DNA of 64,000 nucleotides from an uncultured Verrucomicrobiales bacterium (GTDB taxonomy: Bacteria; Verrucomicrobiota; Verrucomicrobiia; Verrucomicrobiales; Akkermansiaceae). Numbering within the stretch: position 1 is the first letter of the stretch; every line of letters begins with the position of its first letter. Positions 43,259-53,109 of the stretch are shown here, in pieces. The stretch covers positions 1 to 64,000 of the forward strand of contig CALFBI010000011.1 in NCBI GenBank assembly GCA_937951675.1, written 5' to 3'. Position numbers and translations under genes: made by a program. Below the pieces are notes generated by a model. That model was not told the DNA's origin. It made no database searches and worked only from the letters and a program-made list of their open reading frames with translations.

Positions 43259-45217
43259 ATGCAAGAGATTCCTGAACACGAACATGCAAGCCTTGGCGGG
43301 ATGTATTCGGATTACTTTCTCGATTATGCGAGTTATGTGATTCTGGAGCGTGCGGTGCCTCATTTAAATGATGGCTTGAAGCCTGTGCAACGCCGGATTC
43401 TTCATTCGATGAAGGAGCTTGATGATGGGCGTTATAACAAGGTCGCAAATGTGGTCGGGAATACAATGAAGTATCATCCTCATGGCGACGCTTCGATTGG
43501 TGATGCAATGGTTAATATCGGCCAGAAAGATCTGCTCATTGATACGCAAGGAAACTGGGGAAATACTCTTACCGGAGATCGAGCAGCGGCATCTCGTTAT
43601 ATTGAGGCGCGATTAACGCCCTTTGCACTCGAGGTCGTTTTTAATCCTAAGACGACAGATTGGCTCGCAAGTTATGATGGTCGGAACAAAGAGCCCCAGA
43701 CTCTTCCCGTGAAGTTTCCACTCCTTCTTGCCCAAGGGGTAGAAGGGATTGCAGTGGGGCTTGCGTGTAAGATCCTTCCTCATAATTTTATTGAGTTAAT
43801 CGATGCTTCTATTGCGACGCTTAGAAAACAGCCGTTTGAGCTTTTTCCTGATTTTCCAACCGGAGGTATTATGGATGCTTCTGATTATAAAGAGGGCCTG
43901 AAAGGGGGCAGGCTTCGGGTTCGGGCTCTAATCGAGATCGAAAAATCAAAGCTTTTAAGAATTGTGGAACTTCCATTCGGAGTGACGACAAGCTCTTTGA
44001 TGGATTCCATTGTTTCTGCTAATGAAAAGGGAAAGATCAAGATTGCTAAAATAGAAGATAATACGGCGGCAACAGCGGATATTTTAGTGCACTTACCTGC
44101 TGGGGTTGATGCGCAACAATGTCGAGATGCTCTTTATGCCTTTACGGATTGCGAGGTCTCGATTTCTCCTAATGCCGGTGTGATTTTAAATGGGCGCCCA
44201 GAATTTCTGCCAGTTTCTGAGATTTTGACAATCTCAGCCTTAAGAACAAAAGAGTTACTTGGAAAAGAACTCGAAATTAAATTAGGGGAGCTTAACGACA
44301 AATGGCACTTTAGTTCTTTAGAGCGAATCTTTATCGAGAACCGAATTTATCACGATATTGAAGAATGTGAAACTTGGGAGGCCGTTCTCAAAGCCATTGA
44401 TGATGGATTAAAACCATTTAAGAAATTATTGAAACGAGAGGTGAGTGAAGAAGACCTGGTTCGATTAACCGAGATCCGAATTAAGCGTATTTCTAAATTT
44501 GATTCCTTTAAGGCGAACGAAGCCATCAACCTTCTTGAAGAGACGATCGCTGAAACGGAGAAAAATTTGCGCAATCTGACTCGTTTCACGATTAAGTTCT
44601 ATGAACACCTGAAAAAGACGTATGGAAAAGGTCGAGAACGTCGAACTAAAATTTCGAGTTTTGAACGGGTAGATCGGAGCCAAGTAGTCATGGCGACAGA
44701 GACTCTCTATGTTGATCGGAAAAATGGATTTGCGGGTTGGGCGCTGAAAAAAGAAGAGTCTCTTTGCAAGTGCTCGAAATTAGATGACGTGGTTTCCTTC
44801 ACTGCGGATGGTGCGGTAAGAGTGATGAAAGTGGCGGATAAAGTCTTTATTGGGAAACGCCCTATTCACATTGCACTTTTAAAGAAGGACGAAGAGAAAA
44901 TCTATTCTCTCATTTATCGTGACGGAAAAAATGGAAATACCTTGGCAAAAAGATTCCGCCTTGGAGGAGTCACTCGTGACAAAGAATACATGTTAACGAA
45001 AGGGACTCCAGGTTCTCGAATTTTATATTTTGCAGTTCATGATAGTGAAGAGGCGAGTGGCGACAATGTGGTCACAGTTCATCTTAAAGAAGAGTTGAAA
45101 TTACGCAATTTAGCTCGTGAATTTCATTTTGGTGAAATCGCAGTAAAAAGCCGGGGAGCGAATGGTAACATCGTGACGAAACATACGGTTGATCGGATTC
45201 TGCGTAGTGCTAAATAG
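43259..45217 (+). CDS. parC: Type II DNA topoisomerase subunit A (ParC/GyrA family, ParC-like)
   Basis: A 652-aa A subunit, shorter than GyrA (about 870) and of ParC-like or chlamydial/Bacteroidetes second-topoisomerase size. The breakage-reunion domain starts YSDYFLDYASYVILERAVPH, followed by LKPVQRRILHSM and the helix YHPHGDASIGDAMVNI, the quinolone-site region. The catalytic tyrosine is Tyr114 in ASRYIEARLT. The C-terminal domain from about residue 490 has beta-pinwheel-like repeats (FTADGAVRVMKVADKVFIG) but no GyrA-box is evident. The partner ParE/GyrB gene is not in the window. The gene is isolated: 205 bases before it, and an RNA-structure element begins 2 bases after its stop. Whether it is ParC or a divergent GyrA cannot be settled without a tree. 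Confidence 0.85.
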   Translation: MQEIPEHEHASLGGMYSDYFLDYASYVILERAVPHLNDGLKPVQRRILHSMKELDDGRYNKVANVVGNTMKYHPHGDASIGDAMVNIGQKDLLIDTQGNWGNTLTGDRAAASRYIEARLTPFALEVVFNPKTTDWLASYDGRNKEPQTLPVKFPLLLAQGVEGIAVGLACKILPHNFIELIDASIATLRKQPFELFPDFPTGGIMDASDYKEGLKGGRLRVRALIEIEKSKLLRIVELPFGVTTSSLMDSIVSANEKGKIKIAKIEDNTAATADILVHLPAGVDAQQCRDALYAFTDCEVSISPNAGVILNGRPEFLPVSEILTISALRTKELLGKELEIKLGELNDKWHFSSLERIFIENRIYHDIEECETWEAVLKAIDDGLKPFKKLLKREVSEEDLVRLTEIRIKRISKFDSFKANEAINLLEETIAETEKNLRNLTRFTIKFYEHLKKTYGKGRERRTKISSFERVDRSQVVMATETLYVDRKNGFAGWALKKEESLCKCSKLDDVVSFTADGAVRVMKVADKVFIGKRPIHIALLKKDEEKIYSLIYRDGKNGNTLAKRFRLGGVTRDKEYMLTKGTPGSRILYFAVHDSEEASGDNVVTVHLKEELKLRNLAREFHFGEIAVKSRGANGNIVTKHTVDRILRSAK

Positions 45218-45218
45218 A

Positions 45219-45282
45219 ATGGTGTTCAAAAAAACACTTTACAGAGAGGGTTATCATCTTAAGGTGTCTTTATGAACACCAT
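45219..45282 (+). promoter_or_regulatory. Possible RNA switch over the start of a small ORF
   Basis: ATGGTGTTCA (45219-45228) is an exact inverted repeat of TGAACACCAT (45273-45282). The second arm starts on the T of the ATG of the 48-codon ORF, so pairing would hide the start codon. Two other hairpins exclude this one. GTGTT (45222-45226) pairs with AACAC (45233-45237) followed by TTT, and GGTGT (45263-45267) pairs with ACACC (45276-45280), which hides the ribosome site and leaves the ATG in the loop. The repeats are exact in the sequence; a regulatory role is inference. Confidence 0.5.
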
Positions 45283-45418
45283 AATCCGCTCGCAGTCTTA
45301 CCTGATCCTTAAGTCTCGCCTTTTGATGCAAAAACATGAGCTCGCTCGTGAAGTAAAAAAAGTTCAACGCCTTGAAAGGCAGCTTTATTGGCAACAAATG
45401 GACTTATTATTAAAATAA
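45272..45418 (+). CDS. Small ORF, 48 aa, basic amphipathic helix; unnamed
   Basis: ATG at 45272 preceded by AAGGTG at 45261-45266 (a usable Shine-Dalgarno sequence at correct spacing) and a frame of 48 codons ending in TAA at 45416-45418. The product, MNTIIRSQSYLILKSRLLMQ followed by a Lys/Glu/Arg/Leu/Gln-rich second half, is likely one long amphipathic helix. It lies in the roughly 250-base gap between the topoisomerase and secretin genes. It may be a leader peptide controlling the secretin or a genuine small protein. It is unknown to me, and it could be chance, but the strong ribosome site in a window where such sites are rare supports translation. Confidence 0.45.
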   Translation: MNTIIRSQSYLILKSRLLMQKHELAREVKKVQRLERQLYWQQMDLLLK

Positions 45419-45462
45419 ATGAAAGAAATACGTATTTTTTGCTGACGGAGGTGGTTTTCACT

Positions 45463-47892
45463 TTGTATATAACCCCTCTGTTTATGTTGCTTTTCCTGAA
45501 ACAAACATCAAAATTACGGACTTTCATTAGAGTCCTTCTGTTTAGCTTATGCTTTTCAGGATTGGTTCCGGCTGAATCATTATTTCAGCGCGAGCAAGAA
45601 AAACGGTTACAAGACCAAGCAACCGCTCAACAAGCTCTACTCGCTGGAGATCGATTTTATGAAGCGCAGTCTTATGGAGAGGCTCTGAAAGAGTATGAAA
45701 AAGCGATATCAGGCTTAGGTGAAAACGCTCTTTCGGTGAAAGCTTTGCGTAGCGCTGCAACCGAACGCTATGCAACGGCGGCTGTTGAACACGCTAAGAA
45801 GCTTGTTCGACAAGGGAAACAATCAAAGGCAAAAGCAGTGCTGGAAACGGCTTTGCGAAAAGAAATTGCGCCAAATCATTTGGGAGCGCAAACGTATCTT
45901 AATCAAATTGATGACCCTATTCGAACGAATCCTGCGGTAACTTCGCAACATGTTAAAGAGGTCGATCAAGTCCGCCGCTTATTATATCTCGCTCAAGGAG
46001 CTCATGACTTAGGTCAATTCGATCAGGCTGATGCACACTATGAGCAGGTGCTTCGTTTAGATCCTTATAATAAAGCAGCACGTCGAGGTTTAGAAAGAAG
46101 CAATCAGGAGAACGCTAATTACTTCAAAACAGCCTATGATCATTCGAGAGCTAAATTCTTGGAGGAATTAGACGCTTCTTGGGAAGATAAAAGAAAATCC
46201 AACATTATCGATGATCAGTTACTCAATGCGGTGCCTTTAGGTGAGGTGGGAAGTCAAAGTGCGATTACGGCTCGAAATAGAATTAACAAAATTGTGATTC
46301 CTGAAATTAATTTAGAACAGGTTTCTCTACGAGAAGCCGTCGATTTTTTACAGCAACTTTCGGTCCAAAATGATTTAAGCCCTCCTGGAACACCTCAATC
46401 AGGAATCAATTTTGTTATTGATATTGGAGATGGTTCAGGAGAAAAAACCAAACAAATTGAGGGGATTCGGTTTGATTTGAAACTCACTAACGTGCCGCTC
46501 AGGCAGGCTGTTACTTACATGTGTGAAGTGACACAAACCCAGGCTAAGTATGATGAGTTTGCCGTGATCATTCAGCCGGTTGGTTCAGTGACAGATACGC
46601 TGTATGTGAGAAGTTTCCGTGTCCCACCAGATTTTTTGAGTAGAGAAGCGATTAATCGCCAAGTGAAAGAACGAGACCCTTTTGCTAATGAAGTTGAAGA
46701 AAGAGCTCTTTTAGTAGAAAAACTTTCACCAAAAGACTTTTTTGAGAGGCGAGGGGTTTCTTTTCCTGATGGCTCGTATGCATTTGCAAGTTTTGATCCT
46801 CAAGGGAGTGTGCTTACAGTAAAAAACACACGTCTTAATTTGGATTTAGTGAGTCAAATTGTAGAAGCCATTATTTCGGAAGATCCAGTTGCTATCACAG
46901 TTGAAACAAAATTCATTGAGGTGAATGAAAATATTGTAGAGGAGCTAGGTTATGATTGGCTCATTAGTGGGTTTTCGGTAGGCGGAGATCTAACGCTAGG
47001 TGGTGGAACTGTTGGGAATCAGAATCCTGATGTGACTTCTCCATTTTCTACTTCTGGATTTAGCCCAGTGACTAATGGGAACCGAAGTGGAGATGAAGCT
47101 TCGGGAGCGGTTACAGCTACTGACGCGATTGATTTGTTAAATGTATTTAATCGCTCGTCGAATAAAGCTCCAGGGGTATTAAGTGCTAATGCTTTGATAA
47201 GAGAAGGAGGGCTGCAGGCCATTTTAAGAGGTTTATCACAAGCCAAAGGCACCGATGCGTTAGCGGGTTCTAATGTGGTGCTACGTCCAGGGCAGGTCGC
47301 CACGGTAGAGGCCGTGCGTGAATTGATTTATCCTGAAGAATATGAACCACCTACCATTTCGACCGGTGGCTCAGGAGAAGATGAAGAAGATCGTATTACA
47401 ATTGGTGATGGGATCACGGAAGCTTCTGCGATTGTTGGTGCTCCAGCGACACCGACGTCCTTTACGATGCAAAAGGTGGGCGTGCTTTTAGAGGTTGAAG
47501 CAAATGTTGACCGTCAGACTAATATTATTAGTTTACGCCTTGCTCCAGTGCGCAGAGATCTGGAAGGCTTTTTAAATTGGGGGACACCCTTTTTATTAGC
47601 GGATGATCAAGGAGTGCCACGTCCTTTCGGAGGAATATCGAATCGTATTTTACAGCCGCTGTTCAGAACTGTTAAAACCAATACTTCAGTAGATATTTAT
47701 TCGGGAACTACCATTGCGTTAGGAGGAATCCTTACTGAATCAGTGCAAAACGTAGAAGATAAGACTCCAATTTTAGGAGATCTTCCTGGTGTGGGGAGGT
47801 TTTTTCAACGAAAAAGCCAAGAACCTAATCGCACCGCCTTTATCGTCTTTGTCACTGCGAGAGTGACAGATGCAGGAGGTAACCCGCTTTAA
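45463..47892 (+). CDS. TPR-containing secretin, outer-membrane channel (Amuc_1098-like)
   Basis: About 809 aa. I chose the TTG at 45463 because GGAGGT (45448-45452 region) stands 10 bases before it; an ATG at 45484 is the alternative. A longer frame from 45388 would overlap the small ORF. A signal peptide (TFIRVLLFSLCFSGLVPAES) is followed by TPR-like helical repeats (about 45.6-46.2 kb), a ring-forming domain (INLEQVSLREAVDFLQQLS), and then the secretin core. Core marks are ITVETKFIEVNENIVEELGY near 46.9 kb and SGTTIALGGILTE with DKTPILGDLPGVGRFFQRK at the end. It should form a gated outer-membrane ring for type IV pili or type II secretion. The family layout resembles Akkermansia Amuc_1098, but the pilM/pilO-like partners are not here. 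Confidence 0.88.
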   Translation: MYITPLFMLLFLKQTSKLRTFIRVLLFSLCFSGLVPAESLFQREQEKRLQDQATAQQALLAGDRFYEAQSYGEALKEYEKAISGLGENALSVKALRSAATERYATAAVEHAKKLVRQGKQSKAKAVLETALRKEIAPNHLGAQTYLNQIDDPIRTNPAVTSQHVKEVDQVRRLLYLAQGAHDLGQFDQADAHYEQVLRLDPYNKAARRGLERSNQENANYFKTAYDHSRAKFLEELDASWEDKRKSNIIDDQLLNAVPLGEVGSQSAITARNRINKIVIPEINLEQVSLREAVDFLQQLSVQNDLSPPGTPQSGINFVIDIGDGSGEKTKQIEGIRFDLKLTNVPLRQAVTYMCEVTQTQAKYDEFAVIIQPVGSVTDTLYVRSFRVPPDFLSREAINRQVKERDPFANEVEERALLVEKLSPKDFFERRGVSFPDGSYAFASFDPQGSVLTVKNTRLNLDLVSQIVEAIISEDPVAITVETKFIEVNENIVEELGYDWLISGFSVGGDLTLGGGTVGNQNPDVTSPFSTSGFSPVTNGNRSGDEASGAVTATDAIDLLNVFNRSSNKAPGVLSANALIREGGLQAILRGLSQAKGTDALAGSNVVLRPGQVATVEAVRELIYPEEYEPPTISTGGSGEDEEDRITIGDGITEASAIVGAPATPTSFTMQKVGVLLEVEANVDRQTNIISLRLAPVRRDLEGFLNWGTPFLLADDQGVPRPFGGISNRILQPLFRTVKTNTSVDIYSGTTIALGGILTESVQNVEDKTPILGDLPGVGRFFQRKSQEPNRTAFIVFVTARVTDAGGNPL

Positions 47893-47925
47893 AGAAAAGG
47901 CTTAATATTATCCCCCTAATAGAAG

Positions 47926-49431
47926 GTGAGTAATTTCAATAAAGAAAATCCCCAAAAGTATTCTGTAGACGAGATGATGGAACGTCTTCGTCAAAATGAT
48001 GAAAGAAATGATGAAGGACAGCTAGTGGTTCGAAAAGACGGGAGCACAGCTATCAAAAAAAGAGTGCGTCGTCGTCGCTCCGATCAGCCTGATAAAGAAC
48101 AAAGTAATAAAGGGCGCAAATGGAGAGTTGTCCAGTTATTGTTATTTACTGGTGTCTTGGTAAGTTCTCTTGTGTTTGTTTTGGGTGTCCTGTTTTATCA
48201 TAACAGTAAAGCTTTTGACCTTAAGCTTGAAGAAGGTATTGAAGAGTGGGCAGGGGTAAAAGTGAAGATTGATAAGCTTCGGGTTTTGCCATCGAAGGTG
48301 AAGGCCTCGTCAGTGCACCTCAGCGGGGAACCAGGTTCTCTTCTAAAAGAGATGAAGATCAAAGGAGTCAATGGTGATAATAATCCTCTAAATTTGATTC
48401 GTAAAACATGGAATTCAAACTACTTACGAGCGAAAGAAGCAAAGCTTCTTTTCCAAACTCCAAGCAGTGAAGCTTCGGTCTCTTCAAAGTCTTCATTACT
48501 TGGTCAAGCTGAAAATCTCTATCACTATAAGTCATATAATATCGATCAGCTTGATATTTCGAGTAAGAAAGTAAGAGGCGCGAAGCCAGTCTTTACGATT
48601 CAAAATACGACTTTTTCGTTAAAGCCAAAGTTAGAGGAGCCTTCTCAAGTTCTCCTTTCTAGAGGTCATTTAGAGTTTCTTCATTCAGGGCGTCTCACTC
48701 TTGAACGAGGAGTTTTTGATATAGAAAAAGAAGAGATTGAAATTAAGAGCCTTTACCTTTCTGATGCGCAAGGAATCGGCGAAATTAAAGTTTCCGGATC
48801 TCTTCCTCTTTCTGCAGAGGCGCAACCTATTCTGGATTTAGAAATTAAGCGGATTGGCACGGAATCTATTTTAGGAGCATTAATTTCAGAGCTTTTCATT
48901 GGAGACTTTTCAGGGGAAGGCGAGTTAGAGCTTTCTTACCAAGACAGAAATGAAACCGAAATGAATTTCAATTGGAAAAGTTCCAATTTGGAATTAATGA
49001 ATTTTTCTTTTTTAAGAGGTTTACAAGAATTGACAGGAGATTCGACTTATTCAAAACCCTATATGGGAACTAAAGCATCCGGTGTTTTGAAATTTCAAAA
49101 AGGAGTCTATTCATTAGAAAATTTAGAATTAGAACGTAAAGGGGTTCTTAAAATTTTAGGAAGAGTCGAGTATCGAGCAGACCAAAGACTTTCAGGACAA
49201 TTACGAGTTGGGATTCCTGAAGTAAGAGCATTTTTGCCTCAAAGTAAGAAAGCTCACCCGGCATTTTCACCACCTAAAAATGGTTATGTTTGGGTTGGTA
49301 TTACCCTTTCGGGAACGCCTACTTCCCCCAAAGATAATTTTAGAGATGTAATGGCTTCTCCTTACCATGAAAGCTCTGACTACCAGTCAGAAACTTTTAC
49401 AGAAGATGCTTTTGAGTTACTGACTGAATAA
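47926..49431 (+). CDS. Single-span inner-membrane protein with an AsmA-like periplasmic domain
   Basis: A 501-aa protein. Residues 1-67 are cytoplasmic and charged, with YSVDEMMERLRQNDE and a basic patch KKRVRRRRS. The membrane segment is at 68-91. The remaining 410 residues are beta-rich with AsmA/DUF748-like sequence (KVKIDKLRVLPSKVKASSVH, LDLEIKRIGTESILGALI, GVLKFQKGVYSLENLELERK). AsmA-like proteins form periplasmic lipid-transfer bridges or assist outer-membrane assembly. The listed start is GTG at 47926, only a few bases after GAAGG; ATG at 47974 (MMERL) is an alternative that would drop 16 residues. The gene follows the secretin by 33 bases and precedes the ATPase gene by 54, in the same direction. 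Confidence 0.8.
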   Translation: MSNFNKENPQKYSVDEMMERLRQNDERNDEGQLVVRKDGSTAIKKRVRRRRSDQPDKEQSNKGRKWRVVQLLLFTGVLVSSLVFVLGVLFYHNSKAFDLKLEEGIEEWAGVKVKIDKLRVLPSKVKASSVHLSGEPGSLLKEMKIKGVNGDNNPLNLIRKTWNSNYLRAKEAKLLFQTPSSEASVSSKSSLLGQAENLYHYKSYNIDQLDISSKKVRGAKPVFTIQNTTFSLKPKLEEPSQVLLSRGHLEFLHSGRLTLERGVFDIEKEEIEIKSLYLSDAQGIGEIKVSGSLPLSAEAQPILDLEIKRIGTESILGALISELFIGDFSGEGELELSYQDRNETEMNFNWKSSNLELMNFSFLRGLQELTGDSTYSKPYMGTKASGVLKFQKGVYSLENLELERKGVLKILGRVEYRADQRLSGQLRVGIPEVRAFLPQSKKAHPAFSPPKNGYVWVGITLSGTPTSPKDNFRDVMASPYHESSDYQSETFTEDAFELLTE

Positions 49432-49485
49432 GAGACCATTTTATCTTTCTTTATAGGGGAGAATCAGGGTAAAATTTTTATTGGA

Positions 49486-50826
49486 ATGATGAACTCCTTA
49501 TCAAATCAACAAAAATGCGGTTTGTTTGCCCCTCTTAGGCAAGATTTAGTTCGGACGATTCGAGAACAAATCATTAAGCATCCTAACACCTATTTTTTAC
49601 TCTCCAATTCAGGAGGAGAGGGGAAAACGTCTTTGATCAATGATCTTGTTCAGGTTGCAGATAGTAAATTAATCAATCTTCACTTTCCGGCATTAGAGTT
49701 GAGAGATGATTTTTCAAGGGGTCTTGATCGTTTATTAGGGTATTTATCAGAACCTTTACCGCACTCATCCGAAAAGGAACCTCAAAAATCTTATTTTGAG
49801 CAATTGTATGTGAGGCTTTTTGCTAGTGCTCTGATTGCTCTGATTGAAGAAGGAAAAATCCCTTCAAATGGAGATCAAAATCATGCCGTTTTTTTATTAA
49901 AAAAAGACCCCGAGCAACTTCTTAATTTTACGACGGCTCCCACCGCAATGTCAGCTTGGTTAATGAGGTATTTTAAGCAAGTAGAACCCCTGATTGTTGA
50001 GAAAATTTCAAAGCAGACTGGGGTGAAGGTAAGAGAGCTCAACCAAATTTTTGATCTATGGTCACAGTATGTCTTTAGTAGTCAGGAGGATTTAAATAGA
50101 GAGGGAGACTTTTATCATGGGCTGATTTCATTGACTCATGTTAAAGAGCTTCATTTACCAGCTGAAAAAATGTTTTTTCTCTTTTTGAATTTATGGTCTT
50201 CTCAATTTGCTTTATCGTTAGTTTTTGATCATTGTGAAATGGAACTTTTCAAAGTTCCTGCAATCCAAAGCTTTTTTCTACAACTCATGGAAATGAGGCG
50301 TAAAGCTCCTCAAACCAGTCTTATTGTTGCCTTAAATAAAGATTATTTAACTTCTTTTGGAGAAGGCTTTTGTTTCGACACCCTTTCGAGTCGTATGAAT
50401 GCAGAAGTGGTTTGGTTGAAGCCAATAGATCAAAAAGATCGTTTGTTGCTTTTGAGTTATGTAACGAGCCCGAGAGAATACGCTTACTTACAAGCTAGGG
50501 TTCCTCAAACTATTCAGAGCCCTCGTCAGGTGATACAATGGGTGAAATCCGAGTTGGAGGATTACCAGGAGGAAGTTGTAGAGGTAAAGGAACGGCCTTT
50601 AACAATAGATCAGCAACAGCTTAAGCCAGTGACAGTTGATTCTTCTTTGCGACAGGTTTTATCAACTCAGAGTATTCAGCCTCGAGTTGAGTTGCCCCAA
50701 AAAGCAAGCTTTCATAAAACCGAATCTCTGCCGGTGAGCCCTTTCGAGGCCATGGAAAGTGGAGAGAAAAAACCGGAAAAACCGGAAGCGAAAAAAGGTG
50801 TTTTTTCAGTCTTTGACGAAGAGTAA
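49486..50826 (+). CDS. P-loop NTPase (STAND/AAA-like) of unknown function
   Basis: A 446-aa cytoplasmic protein with a Walker A motif GGEGKTSL in residues 43-50. A Walker B motif lies at about 244-251 (LSLVFDHCE), with the acidic Asp248 and Glu251. After it, KAPQTSLIVALNKDYL resembles a sensor 1 strand. The C-terminal 100 residues are acidic and probably disordered (SPFEAMESGEKKPEKPEAKK). The fold is of the AAA/STAND type, but I do not see helicase, PilT, GspE or MoxR motifs. It could supply energy to the neighbouring secretin/AsmA-like proteins, yet its N-terminal membrane contact is not visible. Family unrecognised. The tRNA gene lies 71 bases downstream. Confidence 0.75.
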   Translation: MMNSLSNQQKCGLFAPLRQDLVRTIREQIIKHPNTYFLLSNSGGEGKTSLINDLVQVADSKLINLHFPALELRDDFSRGLDRLLGYLSEPLPHSSEKEPQKSYFEQLYVRLFASALIALIEEGKIPSNGDQNHAVFLLKKDPEQLLNFTTAPTAMSAWLMRYFKQVEPLIVEKISKQTGVKVRELNQIFDLWSQYVFSSQEDLNREGDFYHGLISLTHVKELHLPAEKMFFLFLNLWSSQFALSLVFDHCEMELFKVPAIQSFFLQLMEMRRKAPQTSLIVALNKDYLTSFGEGFCFDTLSSRMNAEVVWLKPIDQKDRLLLLSYVTSPREYAYLQARVPQTIQSPRQVIQWVKSELEDYQEEVVEVKERPLTIDQQQLKPVTVDSSLRQVLSTQSIQPRVELPQKASFHKTESLPVSPFEAMESGEKKPEKPEAKKGVFSVFDEE

Positions 50827-50897: not shown

Positions 50898-50972
50898 TCC
50901 GGCATAGCTCAGCGGTAGAGCGGGTGACTGTTAATCACTAGGTCCAAGGTTCGAATCCTTGTGCCGGAGCCA
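50898..50972 (+). tRNA. tRNA-Asn(GTT)
   Basis: A full cloverleaf: acceptor TCCGGCA / TGCCGGA, D-arm GCTC...GAGC, anticodon arm GGTGA-CTGTTAA-TCACT, T-arm CAAGG-TTCGAAT-CCTTG, discriminator G and encoded CCA (50970-50972). The anticodon GTT is at 50930-50932 and reads AAC/AAU. It stands alone, with the stop of the convergent TPR gene only 4 bases past the CCA. No integrase or att duplication is visible. Confidence 0.97.
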
Positions 50973-50976
50973 TTTT

Positions 50977-53109
50977 TTAACTAGATGGAATATTGATTCC
51001 TAATTTTTTCTCTAAAGAGGAATCAGGAGAAGCTCCATTTTCGAGAGCATTAAGATAGCATTCTTTTGATTTTTTTTGATCTCCCGAACTCTGGTAAAGA
51101 ACGGCGAGATTATAGTAAGGGTCGCTTAAAGTGGGATTGATTTTAAGAGCTTTTTGAAACGATTGGATGGCTAAATCATAGTCACCTGTTTCTCCAGCAA
51201 CACTACCAAGATATACATGCGAACTAGCTAATTGCGGCGCATGTAAGATGCTTGTTTGGAGCTCTGTTAGCGAAGATTGAAAATCTCGCAATTTATAATA
51301 AGTAACCCCGAGTAAATAATGGGCATATGGAAGAGGGTGCTCTCCCCGAATCGCAATGGCATTGTTCAAGCTTTTTTCAGCATCACCAAGTTGATTCGTA
51401 TGGAGTTGCACGACCCCCAGGTTTACCAAGCTCGGAATATGTCCAGGATGGTCATCGAGTATTGTTTCAAAGATTTCCTGAGCAACGAAAAAGCGTTCAG
51501 TGGTATAAGCTTTACGAGCTAAGTTTTCATAGGTGGAAATACGAGCTTGAAGAACCCTGGCCGCTTTTTCTCGCTGCGAAGCACTTGCTCGGTGCGAAGA
51601 ATGAAATTCGTTATCTGCGGGGCGTTCCGCTAGAAGCATTGTTTCTTTTTTACTCAGTGTGATCCCTTCGCCAACAGTGGCTTCTAGAAGTTCTTGGTGT
51701 TCGGGATTCAACTCGCCTAATCGCTGAAGACCTTTTTTGAGAGCTTCGAGAGATTGCTCTCTTCGTTCCTGTGCGATGAGCTGCCGTTTAATGATTTGTT
51801 TGAGGGTGTCAATTTCCTCTTTAGAGGCTAGGCTGAGGTCAGGTTGCTCAGCTTCTACTAGTAGGTCTGCTTCTGCTCTTTCTAGCTTTTGTTTGATCGC
51901 TTGGAGGTGTTTTTCTTTGGTCTTATTTTCATGACGAAGCGCGATCATTTTTTGCTTTATTAAGGCCAGTTGATGCTGAGCCTCGATGAGGGTTTCTTTA
52001 CTGCTATTAGAATCGTTTGAAATTTGGGTAGTGATTTCGCGAGCTTCGCGGAGCTCTTTAGCAAGCTCCATATTTTGCTCGATGATCGTTTCATAGCGTT
52101 TGCTTTGATTCATTTTTAAGAGACTCGCCATTTCGTCTCGTTCTTGAAGTAAGGCCGTTTTTTCTTTACTAATTTCAACGACTTGAGCATTTGCTTGTCT
52201 GTTGGTTTCTTCAAGATGAGCTATTTTAAGGTATGATTTGGTCAGGAGCTCATCCTTGGTTTGGAGTTCACTTTTAAGTTGTCGAACTTGTTGTTGGAGC
52301 CCTCGAATAACATCGTTATTTGAATTTCTTTCGTTACTTAAACTGGCTGTTAAGTCTTTATTTTTCTGAGTGAGTTTTTCTTGTTCTGTCTGAAGTTGAG
52401 CAATGGTGCCAAGCGCCGCATTGTATTCTTTGCGACTGCGGCTAAGAGCCGCTTTCATGACATCTTTTTCCCGTGTGATTTTATCGAGCTGCTCAGTGAG
52501 GCGCTTCATCTGTGCCTGAACAGGAGCCCCTGCAATCTGATGACGCTGTTGTCTGAGTTCTTTGATTTGCCTACGGAGCCGCGATGATTCAAGATTACGG
52601 TCGTTTTGGGTTTCTTTGAGCTGATTGCGCAGCTGAATGATTTCCTCATTGAGAGATTTAAGACGCTTATTATCAGATGTATTAATGCGAGGTCTTACTG
52701 GTAATGATTTTTTCGGAGTTTCCGCATTAGGAACTTCAGAGGGGGTGAATTCGACTAATTCTTCAAGTCCTTTATCATTATCAGCGTATTTCTTTTCAGC
52801 TAAGGGCTTTACTTTAGCGATGGCTTTTTCAGTGAACTCTCGTCGCATGTTGACAATATCAACCTTCCATTGAGGGTGATAAATAGCCACGGCTTCTAGA
52901 AGTTCTCTCGCCTTTTCGTAAGTCTGGAATGACTCAATATAATTTTTTGAGGCGTATTTTTTTTCAGCATCTTTAGCTTTAAGGTAAGCCTGCATGTAAA
53001 GATCATCTGGCTCTAAACGGTCATAAACAGGCTCCTGCTGAGCTGAAATGCTTACTGAGAGGATCAAAGCATAGAAAAGCAGAGTGACGAAGCGATGAGC
53101 GAAGTGCAT
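50977..53109 (-). CDS. Secreted TPR/coiled-coil protein of unknown function
   Basis: 710 aa with a signal peptide (RFVTLLFYALILSVSISAQ). Residues about 30-110 hold a TPR-like pair (KKYASKNYIESFQTYEKAREL). Residues about 140-480 are a long coiled coil rich in Lys, Glu, Gln and Leu. The C-terminal 180 residues are tetratricopeptide repeats, with clear units such as LVNLGVVQLHTNQLGDAEKS and YYNLAVLYQSSGDQKKSKEC. It is probably a periplasmic scaffold. It is the last gene of a minus-strand group, converging on the tRNA, 57 bases after polX. A role with the secretin, which also carries TPRs, is possible but unsupported. Confidence 0.8.
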   Translation of the reverse strand: MHFAHRFVTLLFYALILSVSISAQQEPVYDRLEPDDLYMQAYLKAKDAEKKYASKNYIESFQTYEKARELLEAVAIYHPQWKVDIVNMRREFTEKAIAKVKPLAEKKYADNDKGLEELVEFTPSEVPNAETPKKSLPVRPRINTSDNKRLKSLNEEIIQLRNQLKETQNDRNLESSRLRRQIKELRQQRHQIAGAPVQAQMKRLTEQLDKITREKDVMKAALSRSRKEYNAALGTIAQLQTEQEKLTQKNKDLTASLSNERNSNNDVIRGLQQQVRQLKSELQTKDELLTKSYLKIAHLEETNRQANAQVVEISKEKTALLQERDEMASLLKMNQSKRYETIIEQNMELAKELREAREITTQISNDSNSSKETLIEAQHQLALIKQKMIALRHENKTKEKHLQAIKQKLERAEADLLVEAEQPDLSLASKEEIDTLKQIIKRQLIAQERREQSLEALKKGLQRLGELNPEHQELLEATVGEGITLSKKETMLLAERPADNEFHSSHRASASQREKAARVLQARISTYENLARKAYTTERFFVAQEIFETILDDHPGHIPSLVNLGVVQLHTNQLGDAEKSLNNAIAIRGEHPLPYAHYLLGVTYYKLRDFQSSLTELQTSILHAPQLASSHVYLGSVAGETGDYDLAIQSFQKALKINPTLSDPYYNLAVLYQSSGDQKKSKECYLNALENGASPDSSLEKKLGINIPSS

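Follow-up and report, generated by a model that had tools for sequence, protein, structure and literature searches.

To our knowledge, and within the portions of the sources available, the sole described secretin system of Akkermansia is Amuc_1098 with MUL2, which is tied to mucin handling. GspN is a single-helix, AsmA-like beta-taco protein that is needed for lipoprotein export through the secretin GspD in Acinetobacter, and PulN has the same role in Klebsiella (PMC12802150). GspN is one studied parallel for the pairing of a secretin with a single-helix beta-taco protein that is described here. GspB/OutB anchors the secretin to the inner membrane and to the cell wall, according to the available part of PMC9239104.

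The window, which is the whole 64,000-nucleotide stretch of DNA that was analysed, comes from an uncultured bacterium of the Akkermansiaceae and carries a secretin gene (SEC2) followed by a gene for an AsmA-like protein (ASM) and one for an AAA+ ATPase (NTP). Almost every sampled member of the Akkermansiaceae has such a second secretin gene in addition to the known pilus secretin locus, and in most of them ASM lies directly downstream. The secretin-ASM module may move a cargo across the cell envelope, and this cargo could carry lipid.

Layout of the locus and its proteins

The cluster is built by three successive ORFs of the plus strand, separated by intergenic gaps of 33 and 54 bases: SEC2 (45484..47892), ASM (47926..49431, 501 aa) and the accessory NTP (49486..50826, 446 aa). 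An earlier note on this DNA described four genes; three of them stand, and the fourth, a 48-aa ORF at 45272-45418, was dropped as no relative of it occurs in any of the loci compared, the window itself excepted, and as it overlaps the mechanical secretin ORF. This mechanical ORF (45388-47892, 834 aa) opens at a TTG at 45388, while the ATG at 45484, just ahead of a plausible signal peptide MLLFLKQTSKLRTFIRVLLFSLCFSGLVPA, is the likelier start to judge by the sequence. Promoter and terminator scans returned signals at chance level only. A parC-like topoisomerase gene (43259..45217, plus strand; NF009397, 1033.9 bits) is regarded as a syntenic neighbour that does not belong to the module; among 63 named loci, 12 have it immediately 5' of the secretin. 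Directly 3' of the ATPase gene lies a tRNA-Asn gene (GTT, 50898-50972), the sole tRNA of the window. A minus-strand gene at 50977-53109 points towards the cluster, and its 710-aa product combines coiled-coil with C-terminal TPR regions. In the loci of relatives that were compared first, the profile of this protein has almost no matches near the secretin.

SEC2 has a signal peptide, a TPR region, N-domains and a C-terminal secretin domain. It matches NF042912, the Amuc_1098 family, with 795.7 bits (cut-off 750) over residues 62-834, which is a full-length match, and PF00263 with 70 bits; the TPR secretin proposed in the earlier note is thereby confirmed, as are its single-span protein with an AsmA-like periplasmic part and its P-loop NTPase, on the evidence given below.

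ASM has one hydrophobic helix at about residues 66-94 (48121..48207, plus strand), where its hydropathy peaks at 2.6 over 19 residues. Its predicted model, with a mean pLDDT of 85, has a long helix (55-92) and a run of long strands. The best solved-structure matches are LPD-3 (Z 9.1), Vps13 (8.0), TamB (7.6, 7.3, 6.8) and Atg2 (6.3), Z-scores that are moderate (6-9) and come from a predicted model, but most of the leading matches are of one type, lipid-groove proteins. ASM is predicted to consist of a cytoplasmic N-terminus, one membrane helix and a periplasmic groove of the beta-taco (TamB/Vps13) type.

The best-conserved part of ASM is cytoplasmic. In an alignment of 51 relatives, Y12, M17, L21, L33, V34, R36, D38, G39, V45, K47, R48, K49, R50, and R51 are invariant or at least 90% conserved, and the stretch that contains them (residues 12-51, YSVDEMMERL...GQLVVRKDGS...KKRVRRRR) is encoded at 47959..48078 of the plus strand. 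This conservation implies a cytoplasmic partner for ASM, which is probably not the ATPase alone, because Akkermansia retains part of the stretch and has no ATPase.

Taken alone, ASM and NTP of the window have no meaningful match to any Pfam or NCBIfam model. Models of the AsmA clan match some of the 51 relatives weakly (DUF748 in 14, best 4.6e-4; YhdP in 2) and the window ASM not at all. Membership of ASM in the GspN family was rejected: PF01203 finds nothing anywhere in the genome of the window, and TIGR04411 reaches 21.2 bits in one relative, where the cut-off is 50. A second family of AsmA-like proteins, seen at L254:6067-7626 and L253:6772-8388, could be the source of ASM; its members have about 520 residues, lack the cytoplasmic motif and are encoded away from any secretin.

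NTP is identified by its sequence and predicted structure as a P-loop AAA+ ATPase with an ORC/Cdc6-like fold and intact Walker motifs. G44, G46 and K47 of the Walker A motif GGEGKTS (49612..49632, plus strand) and D248 and E251 of the Walker B-type motif DHCE (residues 248-251; 50227..50238, plus strand) are invariant in 21 relatives, of which 17-18 match AAA_22, NACHT and AAA_16. The model (pLDDT 80) resembles ORC/Cdc6 and RuvBL-type AAA+ modules, with Z up to 13.0. NTP has no clear membrane span, its hydropathy peak of 1.61 lying within the ATPase core, and no peptidoglycan-binding domain match in Pfam. Its assignment to known anti-phage defence ATPases was rejected, as none of the 21 relatives matches a PADLOC model at E 0.01.

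The relatives of NTP have a core and then a long variable proline-rich tail; at the end of many of these tails is a conserved DDLLRQFRERYG-like peptide, which is missing from the window NTP. In L182, L184, L189, L193, L209 and others, the C-terminus is formed by a conserved DELLRQFRERYG-like peptide past the long proline-rich linker, and this peptide weakly resembles DEMMERLK at the ASM head. A docking motif shared by the ASM head (DEMMxRLK) and the NTP tail (DDLLRQFRER) was set aside as a weak lead; it was first seen with a pattern built after viewing both sequences, and the tail of the window NTP lacks it. A strict ASM-only score matrix does not single out the NTP tails, and with a substitution-smoothed ASM matrix 25 of 36 NTP tails exceed the 99th percentile of other tails.

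Two secretin loci and their partners in the family

Four genes with a secretin domain are present in the genome of the window, which is 97% complete and comprises 2.05 Mb in 28 contigs. On contig C21, a canonical Amuc_1098-type gene is followed by relatives of Amuc_1099, 1100, 1101, and 1102, with coaE/rho on one side of the locus and a dehydroquinase-like gene on the other, and this order matches the surroundings of MUL2 in the available part of the published description (PMC13174399). The Amuc_1101 relative is the only PilM of the genome. SEC2 is 41% identical to the canonical secretin of C21, and relatives of Amuc_1099-1102 are absent from the window, being present with the C21 paralogue.

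In a tree of 71 secretins made by a quick method, SEC2, on a long branch, groups with secretins that precede ASM (support 98). Within the family, the ASM-linked secretins are apart from those adjoining Amuc_1099, and SEC2 lies outside the MUL2 branch, while outside the family the ASM-linked and MUL2-type labels mix. The second secretins of Akkermansia form their own branch. One genome has MUL2 at 1.29 Mb and the SEC2-ASM pair at 1.92 Mb, and thus both loci; it is recognised as Akkermansia by its Amuc_1102, which is nearly identical to PDB 7DSZ, the match extending almost throughout. The window secretin is, on the strength of its sequence, a second paralogue of the Amuc_1098-type (type IV pilus) secretin. 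An uncharacterised envelope-spanning module separate from Amuc_1099-1102, as the earlier note had suspected, is upheld by the presence of both loci in the genome, by the family-wide retention of the pair and by the split in the tree. Literature searches for its locus tags did not identify the second secretin of Akkermansia, and no experiments on the SEC2, ASM or NTP proteins were found in the part of the literature that was covered. With a second secretin locus across the family, studies that credit secretin functions to one locus may miss half.

An alignment of 25 diverse ASM rows gave no conserved stretch usable for a scan, so a closer ASM set was used. Seeded on ASM alone, the scan of named genomes returned 80 loci, mostly from Akkermansiaceae, Luteolibacter, Haloferula and Roseibacillus, and a secretin lies immediately upstream on the same strand in 73 of the 75 loci with a scored ASM gene. 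The pair is also found in two genomes of another family of the order. The ASM profile matches 154 of the 155 family genomes, many of which are fragmented, and its weak matches in small genomes are the other AsmA-like protein, which lacks the cytoplasmic motif and has no secretin in the flanks examined. Wherever the upstream sequence was sufficient, ASM was not seen apart from a secretin.

NTP as the sole query had no matches in the genome contigs, being too divergent. Its profile finds the ATPase in 87 of the 155 family genomes, in a single copy in nearly all, and it is absent from the other 68. It adjoins ASM in about 50 of the 87 (48 by script and 2, which are contig- or frame-broken, by eye) and lies apart in about 35, and it is almost confined to genomes with ASM, the two exceptions being fragmented genomes. 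The gene order, whose conservation the earlier note had proposed to check, is kept for the secretin and ASM and not for the ATPase. Of the observations that the note named as refuting its idea, about half are borne out: relatives carry the ATPase gene, but not ASM, apart from the secretin, and a PilMNO-type set exists elsewhere, but next to the other secretin paralogue.

In Akkermansia, the pair is followed by genes for a DUF374-like acyltransferase and folD. In several genomes of this genus (G002, G113, G129, G136, G176, and G182), the acyltransferase and folD genes come immediately after the second secretin, and since they come after ASM in other Akkermansia, ASM has dropped out. In genus g5 (L293, L294; G004, G016), the second secretin stands after parE-parC without ASM, has lost its TPR region and measures 711-722 aa. 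Because ASM was lost and the secretin kept in several lineages, the secretin is regarded as the core, ASM as its usual partner and the ATPase as an accessory. By sequence comparison, the dependence is nested: secretin, then ASM, then the ATPase, which occurs almost only with ASM. The recurrent neighbours of the SEC2-ASM pair include no pilin, PilM, gsp or Lol genes and no conserved lipoprotein cargo, and a LolD-like ABC gene was rejected as a conserved neighbour as it is inconsistent across loci.

Possible motors and functions of the module

No PilM/N/O, gspE/F or pilT genes adjoin the cluster, as the earlier note had stated, yet all are present elsewhere in the genome, where PilM/N/O, ATPase and platform genes lie on C2, C10, C12, C14, C21, and C26. 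Its description of the cluster as without known partners was too strong, because these pilus and type II motor parts could serve SEC2; a PilMNO-type set is beside the other secretin paralogue. C12 (22786-28053; L257:8786-14053) has a pilin-like gene, a platform gene and two genes for GspE/PilB ATPases, with no secretin alongside, and this set is a possible motor for an orphan secretin. C26 has a further ATPase-platform pair and C14 has two pilT genes. Motors shared with SEC2 are possible, since the motor parts of C12 and C26 adjoin no secretin and pilT is found on C14.

The preferred reading, to which a probability of about 0.4 is given, is that a pilus-type secretin has become specialised in export, together with a groove protein whose role would be, by analogy, that of GspN in type II secretion; the second secretin of Akkermansiaceae would owe this specialisation to a beta-taco protein anchored in the membrane, joined in many lineages by a cytoplasmic AAA+ ATPase. 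SEC2 would form the outer-membrane channel, and ASM, anchored in the inner membrane, would project into the periplasm below this channel and offer a hydrophobic groove. For the cargo, we infer from the GspN analogy that acylated or otherwise lipid-bearing molecules, most likely surface lipoproteins, would exit through SEC2. Filament motors could be shared with the pilus and type II machines whose genes lie elsewhere. ASM would bind a cytoplasmic factor through its conserved cytoplasmic stretch, and NTP may help in assembly or loading. Against this reading, ASM is outside the GspN families by sequence, neither a Lol gene nor a conserved gene for lipoprotein cargo lies beside the pair, and the structural evidence comes from predicted models with moderate Z-scores. 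The secretin must also have some function without ASM, because part of Akkermansia and genus g5 keep the first and lose the second. AsmA-like proteins, moreover, are able to act in phospholipid transport without a secretin. It is rather unlikely that the pilus-derived secretin has become a pilus-independent exporter of lipid-bearing cargo across Akkermansiaceae, with ASM feeding the channel and recruiting a cytoplasmic partner by its conserved peptide and with a dedicated AAA+ ATPase assisting.

SEC2 could also serve an alternative filament through pilB/pilC/pilT encoded elsewhere, forming a second type IV pilus in which ASM replaces the PilNOP-type bridge and has no lipid role. Such a pilus is somewhat unlikely: it agrees with the full-length match of SEC2 to the Amuc_1098 family of pilus secretins, with the secretin-less set on C12, the pair on C26 and the two pilT genes on C14, and with the PilN-like layout of ASM (a conserved cytoplasmic peptide, one helix and a periplasmic domain), but the predicted fold of ASM is a lipid-type beta-taco instead of a ferredoxin-like PilN/PilO domain, pilin and PilM are missing from the recurrent neighbours of the pair, and the use of C12 parts by SEC2 is conjectural. 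The fold that speaks against a pilus is shared with lipid-groove proteins and would suit outer-membrane lipid homeostasis, with ASM as a YhdP/TamB-like lipid-transfer bridge for which the secretin would be a docking and anchor point and, in this pairing, no export channel. The ASM-like paralogue without the cytoplasmic motif, which occurs in the same genomes and has no secretin in the flank examined, and the acyltransferase and folD genes of Akkermansia point in the same direction. This role is nevertheless improbable, as ASM pairs strictly with the secretin and not with an outer-membrane lipid partner such as a TamA-like protein, and the acyltransferase is a neighbour only in Akkermansia, where it adjoins the secretin even after loss of ASM.

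The ATPase and ASM could, without handling cargo, form a system for secretin assembly or targeting with a role comparable to GspA/GspB. The best Pfam matches of the ATPase relatives include AAA_22, the occurrence of both genes is nested on the secretin, and GspB/OutB offers a precedent as secretin anchor in the available part of PMC9239104; the ATPase, however, has neither a clear membrane helix nor a Pfam peptidoglycan-binding domain and is missing in 68 of 155 family genomes, and this role is improbable. A transfer system, the other function raised in the earlier note, finds no direct support for either DNA or protein transfer. If export with a GspN-like groove protein is true, it would be a second, independent pairing of a secretin with a lipid groove besides the 2025 GspN finding, and surface placement of proteins or lipids in such bacteria would be open to gene deletion tests.

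Comparison with described systems

SEC2 shares with MUL2/Amuc_1098 the NF042912 family and the TPR and secretin layout, and both loci are found in the genome of the window and in one Akkermansia genome. SEC2 differs in having no Amuc_1099-1102 neighbours, in its separate branch within the family and in its pairing with an AsmA-like protein. GspA/GspB is similar in that an AAA+ ATPase and a single-span periplasmic protein are linked to a secretin, whereas NTP is apparently soluble with no detected peptidoglycan-binding domain and ASM is a predicted beta-taco protein. Compared with GspA/ExeA, NTP has no clear membrane span and no match to a periplasmic peptidoglycan-binding domain. ASM resembles TamB, YhdP, DUF748 proteins and Vps13 in its predicted fold and N-terminal membrane anchor, and it is distinguished from them by its size of about 500 residues, its position one gene from a secretin and its conserved cytoplasmic motif.

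The GspD-GspN system, which exports InvL in Acinetobacter and PulA in Klebsiella, likewise combines a secretin with a single-helix inner-membrane AsmA-like beta-taco protein. In the window, by contrast, ASM has no PF01203 match, the pair has no type II core genes alongside and the secretin is of the pilus type. The system of the window also adds a conserved cytoplasmic stretch in ASM and a linked AAA+ ATPase.
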